A stretch of 64,000 bases of DNA from a bacterium (GTDB lineage Bacteria; Bacillota; Bacilli; Lactobacillales; Streptococcaceae), in the NCBI GenBank assembly GCA_905221505.1, contig CAJNDL010000001.1:124001-188000 (forward strand), written 5' to 3'. Within the stretch, counting starts at the first letter, position 1. Every line of letters begins with the position of its first letter. The notes beneath the pieces are model-generated. The model saw nothing but the letters and a program-made list of their open reading frames with translations. It searched no databases and had not been told where the DNA came from. The position numbers and the translations under genes are program-made. Shown here piece after piece: positions 29,811 to 40,345 of the stretch.

Positions 29811-30374
29811 ATGAAGGAAAAAGACATTCAAAGAGAAACAAGCCAGATTGTAGAAGATGTGTTAAAAAAGGCCAATTTGAAGCAAGGAACTATCTTTGTT
29901 TTGGGCCTTTCTTCTAGTGAAGTCATAGGTGGTCAGATTGGCAAGGAATCCAGTCAAGAAATTGGCGAAATCATTGTGAAGACCATCCTAGATATCCTAG
30001 AGGAAAAAGGAATTTATCTAGCTGTTCAAGGCTGTGAACATGTCAATCGGGCCCTCGTTGTTGAACGTCAGTTGGCAGAGCAGTTTGGTCTGGAAATCGT
30101 CAGTGTCCTTCCGACTCTTCATGCAGGGGGGTCAGGTCAGTTGGCAGCCTTCAAGTTTATGCAGGATCCAGTTGAGGTTGAGTTTATCAAGGCTCATGCT
30201 GGATTGGATATCGGAGATACTGCAATTGGCATGCATGTCAAGCATGTTCAGGTTCCGATTCGCCCTCTTTTGAGAGAGATTGGGCATGCCCATGTAACGG
30301 CTCTTGCAAGTCGTCCCAAATTAATCGGAGGTGCGCGTGCGCACTATCCGCAAGATTCTATTAGAAAGTCGTGA
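29811..30374 (+). CDS. UPF0340 / TIGR01440-family protein
   Basis: Conserved cytoplasmic Firmicutes protein (YwlG group) of 187 residues and unknown function. Recognisable segments include [29 protein letters not shown] and [15 protein letters not shown] start at the ATG at 29811, with GAGG about nine bases before; the ATG at 29790 lies on the predicted transcription start. The stop overlaps the beginning of zmpB, so the two are coupled, which links a housekeeping protein to the surface protease. Confidence 0.87.
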
Positions 30375-30376
30375 GA

Positions 30377-33300
30377 ATGAAAAAAACAAAACAACAACTA
30401 GAAAAAATTACCAAATATTCGATTCGTAAGTTAACTGTTGGGGTAGGTCCTGTAGCAATCGGGGCCTTCCTTTTTGGTGCTAGTACCCTTTCAGTAGATA
30501 AGGTACAAGCCAATGAAGTTGGTGGAGCTCATAGCGTTCATTACCGTTATCTGGCGGAGCAGGAATTGACCGAGTCTGAAAAAGCCCTGATTCACCATGA
30601 GGTTCCTACAGAATTTCAAGATGATGATATTCTTTATGTAGTTTATCGCAAGAAGGAAACTAACAGTCAACAACTTCCATACACAGGAAGTAAGGAACTA
30701 GCTTTGGCAGGTCTTGGCTTGGCAACTGCTTCTCTAGCAGTCTTTTTGGTGTCCAAAAAAGGTCGTAGAGAAGTCCTAGGTGTTCTCTGGATTGGTTCTT
30801 TAGGAGCTAGCACCTTTGTTCCTTATGGGACATTTGCTTTTGAAAATAAAGAATTGCTTTCTTATAACCAAACTATTTCGGCCACTACACATGAAGGCTT
30901 AGCTGAAGGGATTATCCACATTGATGGCTATGAGTACATCGGCTACTTCAAGGAAGCAGAACTCCATCCATCAAGACCAGCTTCAGCTGAGAAGCCTCAG
31001 TTGCCAGTAGAAAAGCAAAGTTCAAAAGAAATGGAGAAAACAGAAGTAGCTCAGGAAAGACCTGCTGTTGCTTCGGAAATTGCCGTTGAAAAACCTGTAG
31101 GAGAGACTCCAGTTGCTCCTGCGGTTGAAGAAAAACCAGTTTCTGAGAAGCCTCAGGCAAGACAGGAAGAGAGCTTGGTGGAGATTCCTTTTGAAACGGT
31201 CACAAGTCCAGATGCGAATTTAGTAGAAGGACAGACTCGTATCGTCACAGCCGGAGTAAATGGTCAGCGTCGCCTTGTAACCAAAGTTTCGATGGTCAAT
31301 GGTCAAGAAGTTAGAGAAGTTATCGAAGACCAAGTTGTTCAAAATCCTGTGTCTCAAGTCATTGCAGTCGGAACTAAGAAAGAGGTACAACCTGCTCCAA
31401 CTCCAGTACCACAAGCTGAACCAAATCACCAAGCAGCTAAAGGAACCCAAGAGGCAGGTAAGGAAGGTCAATCCTTAACGCAACCAGAAAATACAGAATA
31501 TCATGAAGTAAAAGGTGTTCAAGAAGTGAAAGAAGGCGAGCAGCAAGGTCAAGCCTTAATCCAGCCAGAACTTTCTGAATATAAAGAACCAGTTTCAACA
31601 AAGGGAACTCAAGAACCTGGTCAAGAAGGTCAAGCACCAGTACAAGAAGTAAACCCAGAATATAAAGTAACAACAGGTACAGTTGAGAAGTCTACCGAGA
31701 GTGAATTAGATTTCACAACAGAAGTTGTTCCAGACGATACAAAATATGTGGATGAAGAAGTAGTTGAAACCCCTGGTTCTAAAGGTGTTCAAGTTACGAA
31801 AACAACTTACGAAACAGTGGAAGGTGTAGAGACAGATAAAGTTCTTTCTACAACTACAGAAGTGAAAACGCCTGCCATTTCTAAAGTCGTTAAAAAAGGA
31901 ACGAAACCACTTGAAGGAACAACAGTTGAAACAAGAGAAGAAGTCATTCCTTTTGAAACAAAAGAACAAGAAGATGACACTTTAAAACGCGGAACAAGAC
32001 AAGTAGCTCAAGAAGGTGTAAACGGTAAGAAACAAATTACTGAAACCTATAAAACAATTCGTGGAGAAAAAACAAATGAAGCTCCAACAGTAGAAGAAAC
32101 AGTTCTCCAAGCACCTCAAGATGAGGTTATCAAAAAAGGTACAAAAGGTTTAGAAAAACCAACCTTAGAATGGGCTAAAACAGAAAAAGATGTCTTGAAG
32201 AAGAGCGCAACAGCTAGTTATACATTAAATAAACCAGCTGGAGTAGAAATCAAATCAATCAAATTAGCGTTGAAAGATAAAGATGGACAACTTGTAAAAG
32301 AAGTAACGGTATCTGAAAATAATTTAAACGCTACTTTAGATAAATTGAAATATTATCAAGGATACACTCTATCTACTACGATGGTTTATGATCGTGGAGA
32401 AGGCGAAGAAACTGAAACATTAGAAGATAAACAAATTCAGTTAGACCTCAAAAAAGTTGAAATCAAAAATATCAAAGAAACAAGCTTGATGAGTGTGGAT
32501 GCTGACGGTAATGAAACAGACACTAGTTTACTGACAGAAAAACCAGCAGATGTTTCTCCGCTTTATTTACGAGTGACCACTCATGACAATAAAACAACAA
32601 GACTTGCCGTTGGCAAGATTGAAGAAGTCACAGTTGATGGCAAGACCTTGTATAAGGTCACTGCCAAAGCACCTGATTTGATTCAACGTAATGCTGACAA
32701 CACACTTAGCGAAGAGTATGTTCATTACTTTGAAAAACAAAAAGCAAAAGAAGGTAATGTCTACTACAACTTCAATGAGCTTGTAAAAGATATGAAAGCT
32801 AACCCTAGCGGTGAGTTCAAACTTGGTGCAGATCTAAATGCAGCTAATGTACCAACTCCAAATAAAGAGTATGTTCCTGGTACATTTAAAGGTAAGTTAT
32901 CAAGTGTTGAGGGACAACGTTATTCAATCCACAATATGACACGTCAATTATTTGGTGGTATTGAAGGTGGTTCGGTTAAAGATGTTAATTTAGCTAATGT
33001 CGATATTAATATGCCTTGGATTGATAACATTTCTGCTCTTGCTAGAACTGTTAAGAATGCTACTGTTGAGAATATTAAAGTAACTGGTAGTATCACTGGT
33101 AGAGATGGAATTGCCGGACTTGTTAACAAATTAGATAACGGCGGACAGCTTACTAATGTTGCTTATATCGGTAAACTTACTGGTGTAGGTGATAGAGGAT
33201 GGGATTTCGCTGGTATGGTTGGTGAAATCTGGAAAGGTAATGTTGATAAAGGATATGTAGAAGCTGATATAGTTGCTAATAAAGCTCGTATCGGTGGATT

Positions 33301-36226
33301 TGTCGCTAGATCAGATAACGGTTCTGATCCTAACGGAATTGGTAAATATGGTTCTGTTCGTAATGCTGTTACGAAAGGAACTATTAAGGTAAATACACCT
33401 GTTGAAGTAGGTGGTTTCCTTAGTAAGAACTGGGCATGGGGTAAAGTTGCAGACTCTGTGTCTATGATGAAAGTTGAAAATGGTGAAGTGTTCTATGGAT
33501 CTAAAGATATTGATGCTGAGGATGGATACTTCTCAAATAACGCTTTGGAACGTAACTTCGTTGTAAAAGATGTAAGTACAGGTAATCGTTCATTTAGATT
33601 CTCTATTTCCAACCGAATTAAAGAAGTCTTACAAGAAGAAGCTGACAAGAAAATTGCAACATTAGGATTAACTGCTAACGATTATGTTATCAACCCTCTT
33701 GTTGAAGATTCACTTAACAATGTCAAACCAAAAGCAGATACTTACAAATCTACTCAAGATTACGATGCATCTCGTGAGCTTGCTTACCGTAACATCGAAA
33801 AACTTCAACCGTTCTATAATAAGGAATGGATTGTTAACCAAGGTAACAAGATTCCTGCTGGATCCAACTTATTAACTAAAGAAGTATTATCTGTTACAGC
33901 GATGAAAGGAAATGACTTTGTCACAGACCTTACAGATGCTGATCATATTATGATTCATTATGCAGATAAGACAAAAGAAATTAAAGCTATTACACAAAAA
34001 GAATCTAAGGTTCAACAAGTTCGTGAATATAGTATTAACGATTTAGGTGATATTGTTTACACGCCAAACATGGTTGTTAAAGATCGTGCAGATTTAATCA
34101 GCGCTATCGAAAGTAAATTAAGTCCAGTTGAATTGCAATCTGACCCGATTTACCAACACTTGGGTAGAACTGGTGGCAACAAAGTCAATGCAATTAAGGA
34201 TTTGTACTTAGAAGAAAGCTTCAAGTATGTTAAAGATAACCTTAATAAATTCGTTACGAAGTTAGTGGAAAATGAAGATCACCAATTGAACACAGATGAA
34301 GCTGCTAAACGTGCCTTGATTAAGAAAATCGATGACAATAAGGCTGCAGTTCTTCTTGGTTTGTCTTACCTCAACCGTTACTACGGAGTTAAATTCGATG
34401 ACTTTAACATTAAAGAGTTAATGTTGTTCAAACCGGACTTCTATGGTAAGAATGTTAGTGTTCTAGATAGAATCATCAATATTGGTTCTAAAGAAAGTTA
34501 TATTAAGGGTGACCGTACTCACGATGCTTATCGTGAAGTGATTGCTGGTGCTACTGGTAAAGGTAACTTACATGAGTTCTTGAAATACAATATGGAACTC
34601 TTCACAAGTGACACAGACTTAAATGATTGGTTCATAAAAGCAACTAAAGATAATGTATATGTCGTTGAACCGAAGACAACAACTCCTGAATTTGCTGATA
34701 AGAAACACAGAGCGTACGAAGGATTAAACAACGACATGCACGGTAAGATGATTCTACCACTTCTGAACTTAAAAGATGCGCATATGATTTTAATCTCAAC
34801 ATACAATACACTAGCATACAGTTCATTTGAGAAGTACGGTAAGAATACTGAAGCAGAGCGTGAGGCATTTAAACCTGAAATTGATAAAGTTGCTAAAGCT
34901 CAACAAAATTACTTGGATTTCTGGTCTCGTCTATCATTAGATAAAGTTCGTAACCAGCTATTGAAGAGCAATAACATGGTACCAACACCAGTACTTGATA
35001 ACCAAAACTATAAAGAAGGAACTGATAAATACGGTCACACTAATAGTGGTAAAGATGTCGCTCCAGTTCGTGAATTGTACGGACCAACAGGTCGTTACCA
35101 TGCTACTGACTGGCGTATGGGAGCTGTAGCTCGTATCTACGGTAATCCTTATAAGGATGATTCAGTCTTCTTCATGGTTACCAATATGATTAGTGACTTT
35201 GGTATCTCAGCCTTCACTCACGAAACGACTCACGTAAACGACCGTATGGTTTACTTAGGTGGTTCTAGACACCGTGAAGGTACTGACCTAGAAGCATTTG
35301 CACAAGGTATGTTACAATCTCCTGCTGAAACAAGTCCAAACGGTGATTTCAAAGCACTAGGGTTGAACATGGCCTACGAACGTCCAAATGACGGAAACCA
35401 ATGGTATAACACTAATCCAAACGACCTTACATCTCGTGCGGAAATTGACCAGTACATGAAAGGTTTCAATGATACTCTAATGCTTCTTGACTACCTTGAA
35501 GGTGAAGCCGTTCTTGATAAACACGATAAAGCCTTAAATAGTGCTTGGTTCAAGAAAGTGGATAAAAAACTACGTGGAGCTAATACGAAGAACCAATACG
35601 ATGAGGTTCGTGATTTGAATGCAGAAGAAAAAGAATATAACTTAACTTCTGTTAACGATCTGGTAGATAAGAACTTCATGACTAAACACGGTCCTGGTAA
35701 TGGTACTTATGATCCAACTGGATTTGGCTCTGCCTATGTAACGGTGCCTATCACTGCAGGTATTTACGGTGGTAATACAAGTGAAGGGGCTCCAGGAGCA
35801 ATGTCATTCAAGCATAATACCTTCCGTATGTGGGGTTACTTTGGATATGAAAAAGGCTTCTTAAACTACGCTTCTAACATGCTGAAAAATGAGTCTAAAC
35901 AAGCTGGTAATGCTACATTAGGTGATGACTTCATCATTAAGAAAGTTTCTGATGGTAAATTTAATACTCTAGAAGCTTGGAAGAAAGAATACTTCAAAGA
36001 AGTTGTGGATAAAGCTAAGGCAGGATTTAACCCTGTTACAATCGACGGTACTACATACAGTAGTTACGAAGATTTGAAGAATGCATTTGCTGCAGCTGTT
36101 GAAAAAGATAAAGCTACTCTTAAGAATGGATCAGTTAAATTTGATAATACTGTTACACTTAAAGAAAAACTATACAAAAAACTTCTTCAACAAACAAACA
36201 GCTTTAAAACTTCAATCTTTAAATAA
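30377..36226 (+). CDS. zmpB: Surface zinc metalloprotease ZmpB (peptidase M26)
   Basis: Large cell-wall-associated protease of the IgA1-protease family, 1949 residues. It has a YSIRK signal (residues 14-18) and an unusual N-terminal sorting motif LPYTG (100-104) followed by hydrophobic segments, as in other streptococcal M26 enzymes. Three G5-like regions (about 270-335, 445-512, 523-592) follow, joined by Glu/Gln-rich linkers. Then comes a GLUG-like segment and the peptidase domain with HETTH at 1615-1619 and the third ligand E1639 in DLEAFAQ. I start at the ATG at 30377; a GTG six bases upstream is possible. It follows the two-component system that, in pneumococci, neighbours zmpB. Substrate unknown here. 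Confidence 0.93.
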
Positions 36227-36287: not shown

Positions 36288-38006
36288 ATGCATAGAAAAA
36301 CAGTGATTGATTTTAGGGCTTTGGGCGAGAGATACATCTTTACCCAGCCTATCAAAGAGTTGAAAACTAGAAATGTAGCAGAAGTAGCAGCCTTGCTGGC
36401 ACAAGTGGAAAACTACCAAAAGCAGGGTTACTATGTGGTGGGCTATGTCAGCTACGAGGCGGCACCAGCTTTTGAGGAGAAATTAGCAGTTCACAAGGCA
36501 CCTTTGTTGGACGAGTATTTGCTTTATTTTACTGTTCACGATAGGGTGGAGACCTCCCCTATTCCTCTGGCTTATGATGAGGTTGATTTGCCCTCAAATT
36601 GGCAGGAAGTGACGTCTGCAGCAGACTATGAAAAGGCGATTGCTCAGATTCACCATCATTTGCGGCAGGGGGATACCTATCAGGTCAACTATACTGTCCA
36701 ACTCAAGCAGGACTTAACCGCCAATCCTTTTGCTATCTACAATCGTATAGTGGTAGAGCAGGAGGCGGGCTACAATGCTTATGTGGAACATGATGATATG
36801 GCAGTTATTTCCATGAGCCCAGAGCTCTTTTTTGAGCAAAATGACCGCGAGTTGACAACGCGACCAATGAAGGGAACGACTCAGCGTGGCATGACTGACC
36901 AAGAAGATCTTGACCAAGCTAGTTGGTTGGAGCAGGATCCTAAAAATCGGTCTGAAAATATGATGATTGTGGACCTCTTGCGCAATGATATGAACCGTAT
37001 TTCTGAGGTGGGGAGTGAGCATGTAGAACGTCTGTGCCAAGTGGAACAGTATTCGACAGTTTGGCAGATGACTTCGACCATCAAGAGTCAGTTACGAGAG
37101 AGTGTTGACCTTGTTGAAATCTTCCGTTCTCTCTTTCCTTGTGGTTCCATAACGGGCGCTCCGAAAATTGCGACTATGGAGATTATCAAAAATTTGGAAC
37201 CTCAACCGCGCGGAGTTTATTGTGGAACGATTGGTCTCTTGCTTCCAAATGGGCGAAGGATTTTCAATGTTGCCATTCGGACCATTCAACTGCATCAAGG
37301 GAAAGCCATATATGGAGTAGGTGGCGGCATTACATGGGATAGCACTTGGGAATCTGAATACCTCGAGGTTCATCAAAAGGCAGCTGTTCTCTATCGTAAA
37401 CAAGCTCGCTTCCAACTGATTACAACTGGAAAAATTAGCCAAAAACAACTGCTGTTTGAAGAGCAACATATAGAAAGACTGAGAAAAGCAAGTCGATATT
37501 TTGCATATCCTTTTGATGCAGAAGACTTGAAACAAAAGATAGCGGCGGAGTGTCAGGCTTGTGACGCTAGTCAAGATTATCGTCTACGAATCAGTCTCGA
37601 CAAGTCTGGAGAGATAGAACTCAGTCTCCAAGTATTAGCACCCCTCAGTCCGACCTTCTGCCAAGCCAAACTTTGCCTGCAGGAAATGGATTTGAATCAA
37701 GTTTTTACCTACTTTAAAACGACTCATAGACCACATTTGACAGTGGGAAATCAGGAAATCATCTATCACACTGCTGCTGGAGAACTGCTTGAAACATCTA
37801 TTGGAAATTTGGTTCTGAAAATCGCTGGAAAGCTCTATACACCGCCAGTCCGACTTGGCATCTTACCGGGAATTTATCGTCAGTATTTACTAGAAACAGG
37901 AAAAGTAGAAGAGAAAGTCTTGACCTTAAAAGACTTAGCCCAAGCAGAAGCTGCTTACGGCTGTAATGCAGTGAGAGGCTTGTATGAATTATTTATTCAA
38001 AAATAA
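36288..38006 (+). CDS. pabB: Bifunctional aminodeoxychorismate synthase component I / lyase (PabB-PabC)
   Basis: Folate-pathway enzyme of 572 residues that makes 4-aminobenzoate from chorismate. Residues 1-375 form the chorismate-binding domain: GDTYQVNYTVQLKQDL, MSPELFF, RPMKGTTQRG, NMMIVDLLRNDM, SITGAPK and YCGTIGLL. The rest is a PLP-dependent lyase of aminotransferase class IV, with the lysine in YFKTTHRPHL (K477) and LLETSIGNLVL. The glutamine amidotransferase PabA is not adjacent. There is no ribosome binding site and the -10 box ends six bases before the ATG. I therefore expect leaderless translation. Confidence 0.93.
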   Translation: MHRKTVIDFRALGERYIFTQPIKELKTRNVAEVAALLAQVENYQKQGYYVVGYVSYEAAPAFEEKLAVHKAPLLDEYLLYFTVHDRVETSPIPLAYDEVDLPSNWQEVTSAADYEKAIAQIHHHLRQGDTYQVNYTVQLKQDLTANPFAIYNRIVVEQEAGYNAYVEHDDMAVISMSPELFFEQNDRELTTRPMKGTTQRGMTDQEDLDQASWLEQDPKNRSENMMIVDLLRNDMNRISEVGSEHVERLCQVEQYSTVWQMTSTIKSQLRESVDLVEIFRSLFPCGSITGAPKIATMEIIKNLEPQPRGVYCGTIGLLLPNGRRIFNVAIRTIQLHQGKAIYGVGGGITWDSTWESEYLEVHQKAAVLYRKQARFQLITTGKISQKQLLFEEQHIERLRKASRYFAYPFDAEDLKQKIAAECQACDASQDYRLRISLDKSGEIELSLQVLAPLSPTFCQAKLCLQEMDLNQVFTYFKTTHRPHLTVGNQEIIYHTAAGELLETSIGNLVLKIAGKLYTPPVRLGILPGIYRQYLLETGKVEEKVLTLKDLAQAEAAYGCNAVRGLYELFIQK

Positions 38007-38077: not shown

Positions 38078-38114
38078 AAACATGAAATCGATATCATAAT
38101 TATAGGAGAAAGTG

Positions 38115-39260
38115 ATGAACAAACGTCTATTTTTAAAAATGAGTCTGGCTACCTTGCCAGTTTTAGCCTTGTTTTCACAACCTGTGTTAGCAGAAGAAAA
38201 CATCCATTTTTCTAGCTGTATGGAAGCTTGGGCTAATGGCTATTCGGATCTTCATGAGGGGGATCCTGGTTATTCTGCCAAGTTAGACCGCGATCATGAT
38301 GGTGTGGCTTGCGAATTGAAAAATGCTCCTAAGGGTGCCTTTAAAGCAAAACAAGCAACTGCGGCTCAAACCAACACAACTTCATCTACAACAAGTGGTT
38401 GGGTTAAGCAGGACGGTGCTTGGTACTACTTTGATGGAAATGGAAATCCAGTGAAAAATACTTGGCAAGGAAGTTATTACCTGAAAGCAGACGGTAAAAT
38501 GGCCCAGAGCGAATGGATTTATGATGATTCTTATCAAGCTTGGTATTACTTGAAATCAGATGGATCTTATGCTTACAGTACATGGCAAGGAGCTTACTAC
38601 CTTAAATCAAACGGAAAAATGGCACAAGGTGAATGGGTTTATGACTCTTCTTACCAAGCCTGGTATTACTTGAAATCCGATGGTTCTTATGCTCGCAATG
38701 CTTGGCAAGGGAACTACTATTTGAAATCGGATGGTAAAATGGCTATAAATGAATGGGTTTATGATGCTACCTATCAAGCTTGGTATTACTTGAAATCAGA
38801 TGGATCTTATGCTTATAGTACATGGCAAGGAAATTACTATTTAAAATCGAATGGTAAAATGGCTGTCAATGAATGGGTTGATGGTGGACGTTATTATGTT
38901 GGGGCTGACGGAGTTTGGAAGGAAGGTCAAGCAAGTACAGCTTCTTCTAGTAATGATAGCAATAGTGAATATTCTGCTGCTTTAGGAAAGGCAAAAAGTT
39001 ATAATTCGTTATTCCACATGTCAAAAAAACGTATGTATAGACAATTAACTTCTGATTTTGATAAATTTTCAAATGGTGCAGCTCAATATGCGGTTGATCA
39101 TTTAGAAGCCGATTATAAATATAATGCTTTATTTAATGCTAAAAATTATAGAAAATTATTTAATATGTCTAAATCTCGTCTCATCAATCAATTGACCTCT
39201 TCTATAGATGGCTTTACAGAGGAAGAAGCTAACTATGCAATTAATCATTTAGATGACTAA
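38115..39260 (+). CDS. Choline-binding surface protein with Excalibur and two Ltp-like domains
   Basis: Exported protein of 381 residues with four parts. A signal peptide (about 1-26, ending PVLA) is followed by an Excalibur calcium-binding domain (about 28-70: CMEAWANGYSDL, then LDRDHDGVACE). Next come choline-binding repeats (about 84-262: GWVKQDGAWYYFDGNG and related units) that would attach it to teichoic-acid choline. The end consists of two Ltp-like repeats (about 285-381: HMSKKRMYRQLTS and FNMSKSRLINQLTS, each closing YAVDHL or YAINHL). Ltp domains are known from a phage lipoprotein that blocks phage DNA injection. The C-terminal part is visibly AT-rich. The function here is unknown; a DUF-like wall protein is the alternative. 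Confidence 0.87.
   Translation: MNKRLFLKMSLATLPVLALFSQPVLAEENIHFSSCMEAWANGYSDLHEGDPGYSAKLDRDHDGVACELKNAPKGAFKAKQATAAQTNTTSSTTSGWVKQDGAWYYFDGNGNPVKNTWQGSYYLKADGKMAQSEWIYDDSYQAWYYLKSDGSYAYSTWQGAYYLKSNGKMAQGEWVYDSSYQAWYYLKSDGSYARNAWQGNYYLKSDGKMAINEWVYDATYQAWYYLKSDGSYAYSTWQGNYYLKSNGKMAVNEWVDGGRYYVGADGVWKEGQASTASSSNDSNSEYSAALGKAKSYNSLFHMSKKRMYRQLTSDFDKFSNGAAQYAVDHLEADYKYNALFNAKNYRKLFNMSKSRLINQLTSSIDGFTEEEANYAINHLDD
38511..38870 (+). repeat. Three 120-base tandem repeats in the choline-binding region
   Basis: Units start at 38511, 38631 and 38751, with a partial fourth at 38871. Each encodes 40 residues beginning EWIYD or EWVYD and running through SYQAWYYLKSDGSYA. The DNA-level similarity is high, which suggests recent expansion or gene conversion. 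Confidence 0.9.
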
Positions 39261-39289: not shown

Positions 39290-39330
39290 AATTCATTCAC
39301 GCAAACCTTTGCATAAATGAGTGAATTTTG
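39290..39330 (+). terminator. Terminator after the choline-binding protein gene
   Basis: AATTCATTCA (from 39290) pairs with TGAGTGAATT (ending about 39327) around a loop with an inner GCAAA/TTTGC stem, then T residues. Confidence 0.65.
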
Positions 39331-39337: not shown

Positions 39338-39385
39338 AGTACTGTAAGCATTTTCAATTAATTTATAATGAAAAAGGAGAATATG

Positions 39386-40345
39386 ATGAGTCAAAAGATT
39401 ATTGGGATTGACCTTGGTGGAACTTCTATCAAATTTGCAATCTTGACAACAGCAGGAGAAATCCAAGAAAAATGGTCTATCAAGACCAATATTTTGGATG
39501 AGGGAAGTCATATCGTTGATGATATGATTGAGTCTATTCAACACCGTTTGGACTTGCTTGGATTGGTAGCAGCGGACTTCCAAGGTATTGGAATGGGATC
39601 ACCAGGTGTGGTTGATCGTGAAAAAGGAACTGTTATTGGTGCCTACAACTTGAACTGGAAAACCCTTCAACCAATTAAAGAGAAAATTGAAAAAGCCTTG
39701 GGGATTCCATTCTTCATAGATAATGATGCCAACGTGGCAGCTCTTGGTGAGCGATGGATGGGTGCTGGTGATAACCAACCGGATGTTGTCTTTATGACAC
39801 TTGGTACAGGTGTTGGTGGCGGTATCGTCGCAGAAGGAAAATTGCTTCACGGTGTTGCTGGTGCAGCAGGTGAGCTTGGCCACATCACTGTTGACTTTGA
39901 CCAACCAATCGCATGTACTTGTGGTAAGAAAGGCTGTCTTGAGACAGTTGCTTCAGCAACAGGGATTGTCAACTTGACTCGTCGCTATGCCGATGAATAC
40001 GAAGGCGATGCAGCCTTGAAACGCTTGATTGATAATGGAGAAGAAGTGACAGCTAAGACTGTCTTTGACCTTGCAAAAGAAGGAGACGACCTTGCTTTGA
40101 TCGTTTACCGTAACTTCTCACGTTACTTGGGAATCGCTTGTGCCAACATCGGTTCAATTCTCAACCCATCAACAATCGTCATCGGTGGTGGTGTGTCGGC
40201 TGCAGGAGAATTCCTTCTACAAGGTGTTCAAAAAGTCTACGACGAAAATAGCTTCCCACAAGTACGTACATCTACTAAATTGGCTCTTGCAACTCTAGGA
40301 AATGACGCTGGAGTAATCGGAGCAGCATCACTTGTATTGCAATAA
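39386..40345 (+). CDS. gki: ROK-family glucokinase
   Basis: Phosphorylates glucose to glucose-6-phosphate and belongs to the ROK family. The 319-residue product starts MSQKIIGIDLGGTSIKFAIL at the ATG at 39386, which has GGAG at good spacing; the in-frame ATG at 39368 precedes that site and is excluded. It contains the second ATP motif LGTGVGGGIV, the ROK signature with GELGHI and the zinc-binding CTCGKKGCLE. The genus-typical multilocus marker gki has this sequence style. Confidence 0.95.
   Translation: MSQKIIGIDLGGTSIKFAILTTAGEIQEKWSIKTNILDEGSHIVDDMIESIQHRLDLLGLVAADFQGIGMGSPGVVDREKGTVIGAYNLNWKTLQPIKEKIEKALGIPFFIDNDANVAALGERWMGAGDNQPDVVFMTLGTGVGGGIVAEGKLLHGVAGAAGELGHITVDFDQPIACTCGKKGCLETVASATGIVNLTRRYADEYEGDAALKRLIDNGEEVTAKTVFDLAKEGDDLALIVYRNFSRYLGIACANIGSILNPSTIVIGGGVSAAGEFLLQGVQKVYDENSFPQVRTSTKLALATLGNDAGVIGAASLVLQ

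Follow-up and report, generated by a model that had tools for sequence, protein, structure and literature searches.

The gene at positions 38115..39260 of the DNA analysed here (the window: 64,000 nucleotides of assembly GCA_905221505.1, contig CAJNDL010000001.1, positions 124,001 to 188,000, forward strand; all coordinates are those of the window unless a locus is named) almost certainly encodes CbpL of the Streptococcus mitis type, which is secreted, attaches to the phosphorylcholine of teichoic acid and displays a pair of three-helix Ltp repeats by way of a short serine linker. The Ltp tail behaves as an exchangeable 3′ cassette and is under purifying selection within the CbpL clade. By analogy with the superinfection-exclusion protein Ltp of phages, the choline-anchored tail may hinder the entry of phage DNA, a reading to which we assign a probability of roughly 40%. 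An earlier interpretation of the gene as a possible host-encoded block to phage entry (the original prediction) is, as a whole, partly supported. The architecture and the underlying idea are already in print for CbpL; the window allele differs from the published one in having two Ltp repeats.

Architecture and locus of the window protein

The original prediction had described a choline-binding surface protein with two C-terminal Ltp repeats, and this domain reading proved correct: the profile search that it proposed matched Pfam Lipoprotein_Ltp (PF07553) at 119.9 bits, with a curated cut-off of 23.2 bits, and in the predicted structure both the fold and the pair arrangement of the tail match the crystallised superinfection-exclusion protein. 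The open reading frame (ORF; 381 aa, plus strand, as are all window features below) follows a Shine-Dalgarno-like AGGAGA (38104..38109) recognised in the sequence, and has an alternative in-frame GTG start at 38112. Its product begins with a putative signal peptide (residues 1-26, 38115..38192; limits of the published CbpL signal peptide, PMC5137146), and a lipobox scan found no lipobox in the protein. Profile matches then place an Excalibur calcium-binding domain (residues 32-67, 38208..38315) and a choline-binding module (about residues 95-270, 38397..38924; limits as in published CbpL, PMC5137146), followed by the serine-rich linker evident in the sequence (residues 271-284, 38925..38966; predicted local distance difference test score below 50 at residues 273-279). 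The two Ltp repeats (residues 285-330, 38967..39104, and residues 336-379, 39120..39251) are each supported by profile match and predicted fold. In the ORF list, cbpL is preceded by zmpB (30371..36226) and pabB (36288..38006) and followed by gki (glucokinase, 39368..40345) and then thyA; these presumptive names follow the published locus. The order pabB-cbpL-gki, in which pabB marks the cbpL locus, is present in the window and likewise in relatives.

CbpL was named in PMC2911433 and studied in PMC5137146, at the locus seen in the window. CbpL of Streptococcus pneumoniae (SP_0667 / SPD_0579 / spr0583) shares with the window protein the pabB-gki locus, signal peptide, Excalibur domain, choline-binding module and C-terminal Ltp domain (PMC5137146), but is 332 aa long (PMC5753484) with one Ltp repeat (283-332), as against 381 aa and two repeats here. 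The pneumococcal protein is reported as a non-lipoprotein and was called highly conserved in the 2016 paper (PMC5137146). That choline replaces lipid as the tether, as had been proposed from the window sequence, is correct but not new, having been published with experiments for CbpL (PMC5137146). Database entries of S. mitis named "Ltp family lipoprotein" (P0014; strain 321A, L061) are 99% identical to the window protein across all 381 residues; the name is misleading, because the lipobox scan found no lipobox in the 321A or SK608 proteins. In contrast, Ltp of the Streptococcus thermophilus phage TP-J34 (PDB 4eqq) is an acidic protein with a lipobox, encoded by a phage gene adjoining the integrase, whereas the window gene is chromosomal and its product is choline-anchored, with an Ltp core of net positive charge.

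An exchangeable tail in the pabB-gki slot

Among the 37 named genomes in which our scan found the gene (38 loci, the two SK564 contigs L095 and L098 being counted once), the slot carries Ltp in five (321A, SK608, SK564, 75_SPSE and 888_SPSE) and lacks the tail in 32; since the scan patterns include two Ltp peptides, Ltp-positive loci are if anything over-represented in this set. A second set of 30 loci, reduced to 29 genomes by dropping a locus outside the pabB-gki slot (L030, genome G068) and apparently sharing some genomes with the first, has Ltp in the slot in 9/29 and an Excalibur CbpL without Ltp in 20/29. Eleven loci whose Ltp matches, under a permissive threshold, reached 0-3 bits were scored as Ltp-less, the accepted repeats having 47-79 bits. 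When six Ltp-less loci were aligned, the gene closed with the last choline repeat and clear similarity to the window returned only just upstream of gki, so that the whole 3′ end seems to have been exchanged. A short inverted repeat with TGCAAA-type arms (CGCAAACCTTTGCA in the window), a possible operator, lies at 39300-39313 upstream of gki; its final 13 bases are identical in all 11 aligned loci, and Ltp-positive and Ltp-less alleles converge again there.

The tail is borne by different proteins in this one slot, namely an Excalibur type, a proline-rich type and, in 888_SPSE, a third N-terminus; its role therefore need not depend on Excalibur. The 888_SPSE protein (647 aa; L065, L105) carries an Ltp pair 92% identical to that of the window over tail residues 12-111. 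In G033, G035, G085 and G008 the slot holds proline-rich proteins (648-855 aa), each bearing four Ltp repeats, and Ltp proteins distributed over two ORFs occupy the slot in G020 and G063; the Excalibur motif is absent from the slot in four of the five four-repeat genomes (G020, G033, G035 and G085, not G008). Two repeats, as in the window, are found in S. mitis 321A, SK608 and SK564 and in 75_SPSE (labelled S. pseudopneumoniae). G040 has a single repeat: in the alignment one unit has dropped out cleanly between the ends of repeats 1 and 2, which resemble each other, and the 3′ flank is that of the window. The cbpL of G040 is also split in two ORFs. Other broken forms include one in two ORFs (L106), one with a stop inside repeat 1 (L099) and two each lying across two ORFs (L103, L104); intact copies occur alongside such split or truncated forms.

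In G008 (L099:3219-7621, minus strand) two adjacent Ltp genes lie between pabB and gki; one encodes the Excalibur CbpL interrupted by a stop within Ltp repeat 1, the other a four-repeat Ltp protein of 806 aa. The 888_SPSE slot protein (L105:4906-6846, minus strand) has an apparently duplicated N-terminal region with no Pfam family above cut-off.

Origin, selection and charge of the Ltp pair

In a tree of 78 Ltp pairs (96 columns, arbitrary root, with host lipoprotein rows that may include prophage genes), the 20 choline-bound pairs form one group (support 100/99), while the five phage pairs, taken from 60 matching phage records, require four changes. Those 60, out of 50,697 phage records, are all less than 60% identical to the window tail; together with the single clade, this makes one old origin of choline-bound Ltp the simplest account. 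The domain acquisition suggested by the original prediction is thus borne out as an exchangeable cassette, with no pointer to a recent phage source. One protein alignment drew on 30 of 70 proteins. Ltp repeats were found in 32/147 relatives; at least some of these are prophage genes, the pairs of L055 and L034 being identical to phage Ltps.

Ratios of nonsynonymous to synonymous substitution rates (dN/dS; the last residue is missing in some tails) were 0.00-0.22 in all 10 pairs from five CbpL-clade tails, and 0.13-0.22 between the CbpL clade and the proline-rich group, where dS is saturated. Among four tails of the proline-rich group, dN/dS was 0.58-1.00 in five pairs and undefined in the sixth; these tails are loosely held or diversifying, and such weak selection is as compatible with decay as with an arms race.

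The Ltp core carries a net charge of +2 to +7 in 11/11 choline-bound modules from loci and of -1 (P0123) to +6 in eight choline-bound database fragments. The median of the other Ltp pairs is -4, although some reach as high as +8, and four of five phage Ltps are negative, one (SAP_1432) being neutral; TP-J34 Ltp, computed for comparison, has -4 and an isoelectric point (pI) of 4.8. The difference between choline-bound and other pairs (p 1.7e-8 for 16 vs 48 distinct sequences; p 8e-4 for 5 vs 33 at 80% identity; P0122, first grouped under "other", was moved to the choline group for the tree and statistics) reflects one evolutionary event, the choline group being a single lineage, and its p-values are thus no count of independent changes. 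With two flank residues and the C-terminal end included, the 11 loci modules span -1 to +7; how large the shift comes out therefore depends on where the pair is delimited. In the alignment, ten columns are shifted by at least half a charge, eight towards positive and two towards negative; the window residues in the eight are K294, K305, R309, R346, K347, K353, D314 and N377, the last two through loss of an acid.

A possible block to phage entry and its alternatives

If the tail acts on phages, the Ltp pair would be an autonomous binding module held on the wall by choline, the counterpart of the lipid-tethered phage Ltp. The tether would put it on teichoic acid where tailed phages land, the pair might catch a phage tail protein (tape measure or tip), and DNA entry would be hindered by the capture. 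The lipid is dispensable for Ltp activity, since a secreted non-lipoprotein Ltp inhibited every 936 or P335 phage tested to below the detection limit (PMC3952083). Pneumophage adsorption requires choline teichoic acid (PMC4652380), so a choline-held pair would probably stand where phages dock. The presence or absence of the tail from strain to strain would suit an entry defence, and the Clostridioides difficile wall protein CwpV is a precedent for a host wall protein that confers phage resistance (PMC4737114). In the literature searched, most of it known by title, we found no test of CbpL against phage.

The computed evidence is mixed, and several observations weigh against this reading. The window core has a net charge of +4 and a pI of 9.3 (+1 and 7.9 with flanks and C-terminus), whereas acidic pI and a membrane anchor or lipobox, both absent from the window protein, are listed, together with a block to phage DNA injection, among the marks of superinfection-excluding Ltp proteins, and a pI of 5.99 is given for the Ltp domain of published CbpL (PMC5137146). 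The reported contact of Ltp is between its acidic residues and a basic tape-measure C-terminus (PMC3952083), and the window pair is not acidic; the tape-measure ends of the phages that we compared have no common charge sign. PblA, the tape-measure protein of S. mitis phage SM1 (L115:24752-27775), carries the annotation of a platelet-binding protein; its C-terminus is acidic and in this differs from that of phage P008. Against most c2 phages secreted Ltp was much less effective, and S. thermophilus phages were only weakly affected by TP-J34 Ltp (PMC3952083). No PADLOC-DB 2.0.0 family of known anti-phage systems was matched at E 0.01, and no close relative was found in IMG/VR contigs. Prophage load does not differ, with portal genes in 4/9 Ltp-positive and 6/20 Ltp-less slot genomes (p 0.67) and PF10145 in 3/9 and 6/20. 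Selection is weak in the proline-rich group. Partial proteins named S. pneumoniae (P0135, P0138) end in one Ltp repeat, and an allele named pneumococcal (P0186; 188 residues, present on 414 contigs) goes out of frame within repeat 1, as judged from the protein alone, so that one of the common forms in pneumococci may be without the Ltp domain.

The published roles of CbpL are host-facing, and they bring up a serious but tentative alternative, that host matrix or serum proteins are the ligands of the Ltp repeats, as of Excalibur, in adhesion or immune evasion, and that the likeness to phage Ltp is confined to the fold. CbpL binds collagens, elastin and C-reactive protein, cbpL mutants show attenuation in mice and are more readily phagocytosed (PMC5137146), and a mostly positive Ltp core could suit contact with anionic matrix. 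Yet the available CbpL literature assigns no host ligand to the Ltp part and calls the role of each module unsolved (PMC5137146), Excalibur is missing from the slot in most four-repeat genomes, and some strains with the tail bear the name of a commensal, S. mitis.

It is improbable, by our estimate, that the pair serves the envelope by docking a secreted or membrane partner of its own cell. Ltp pairs do lie behind another wall-type anchor, PF03793 (P0140, P0142), presumably the PASTA family, and the Ltp repeats in relatives, some prophage-borne, agree with this reading, as does the uneven spread of CbpL on the cell (PMC5137146); against it, the 32 named genomes without a tail indicate that the tail is dispensable for CbpL. 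Least probable is a swapped-in relic, tolerated and decaying, which the single-repeat, frame-broken and early-terminated forms (L106, L099, L103, L104, P0186) and the high proline-rich-group dN/dS would fit, but not the low dN/dS elsewhere, the positive core kept in 11/11 choline-bound pairs from loci or the one origin of the 20 sampled choline-bound pairs.

Interference with phage entry extends to a broader and more doubtful proposal, that the Mitis group owns an entry block in which Ltp pairs of reversed charge, all of a single old lineage, are borne by three or more kinds of choline-anchored protein in one slot, displayed on the phage receptor polymer and swapped between strains. If the tail does not block phage entry, the Ltp fold would have a wider use as a binding repeat, and to label such proteins "superinfection exclusion" would be over-annotation. 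If it does, phage exclusion by such a domain would be shown to work from a wall tether, and how sensitive oral streptococci and pneumococci are to phages would hinge on which allele they carry of a surface protein regarded in the available literature as a host-interaction factor.
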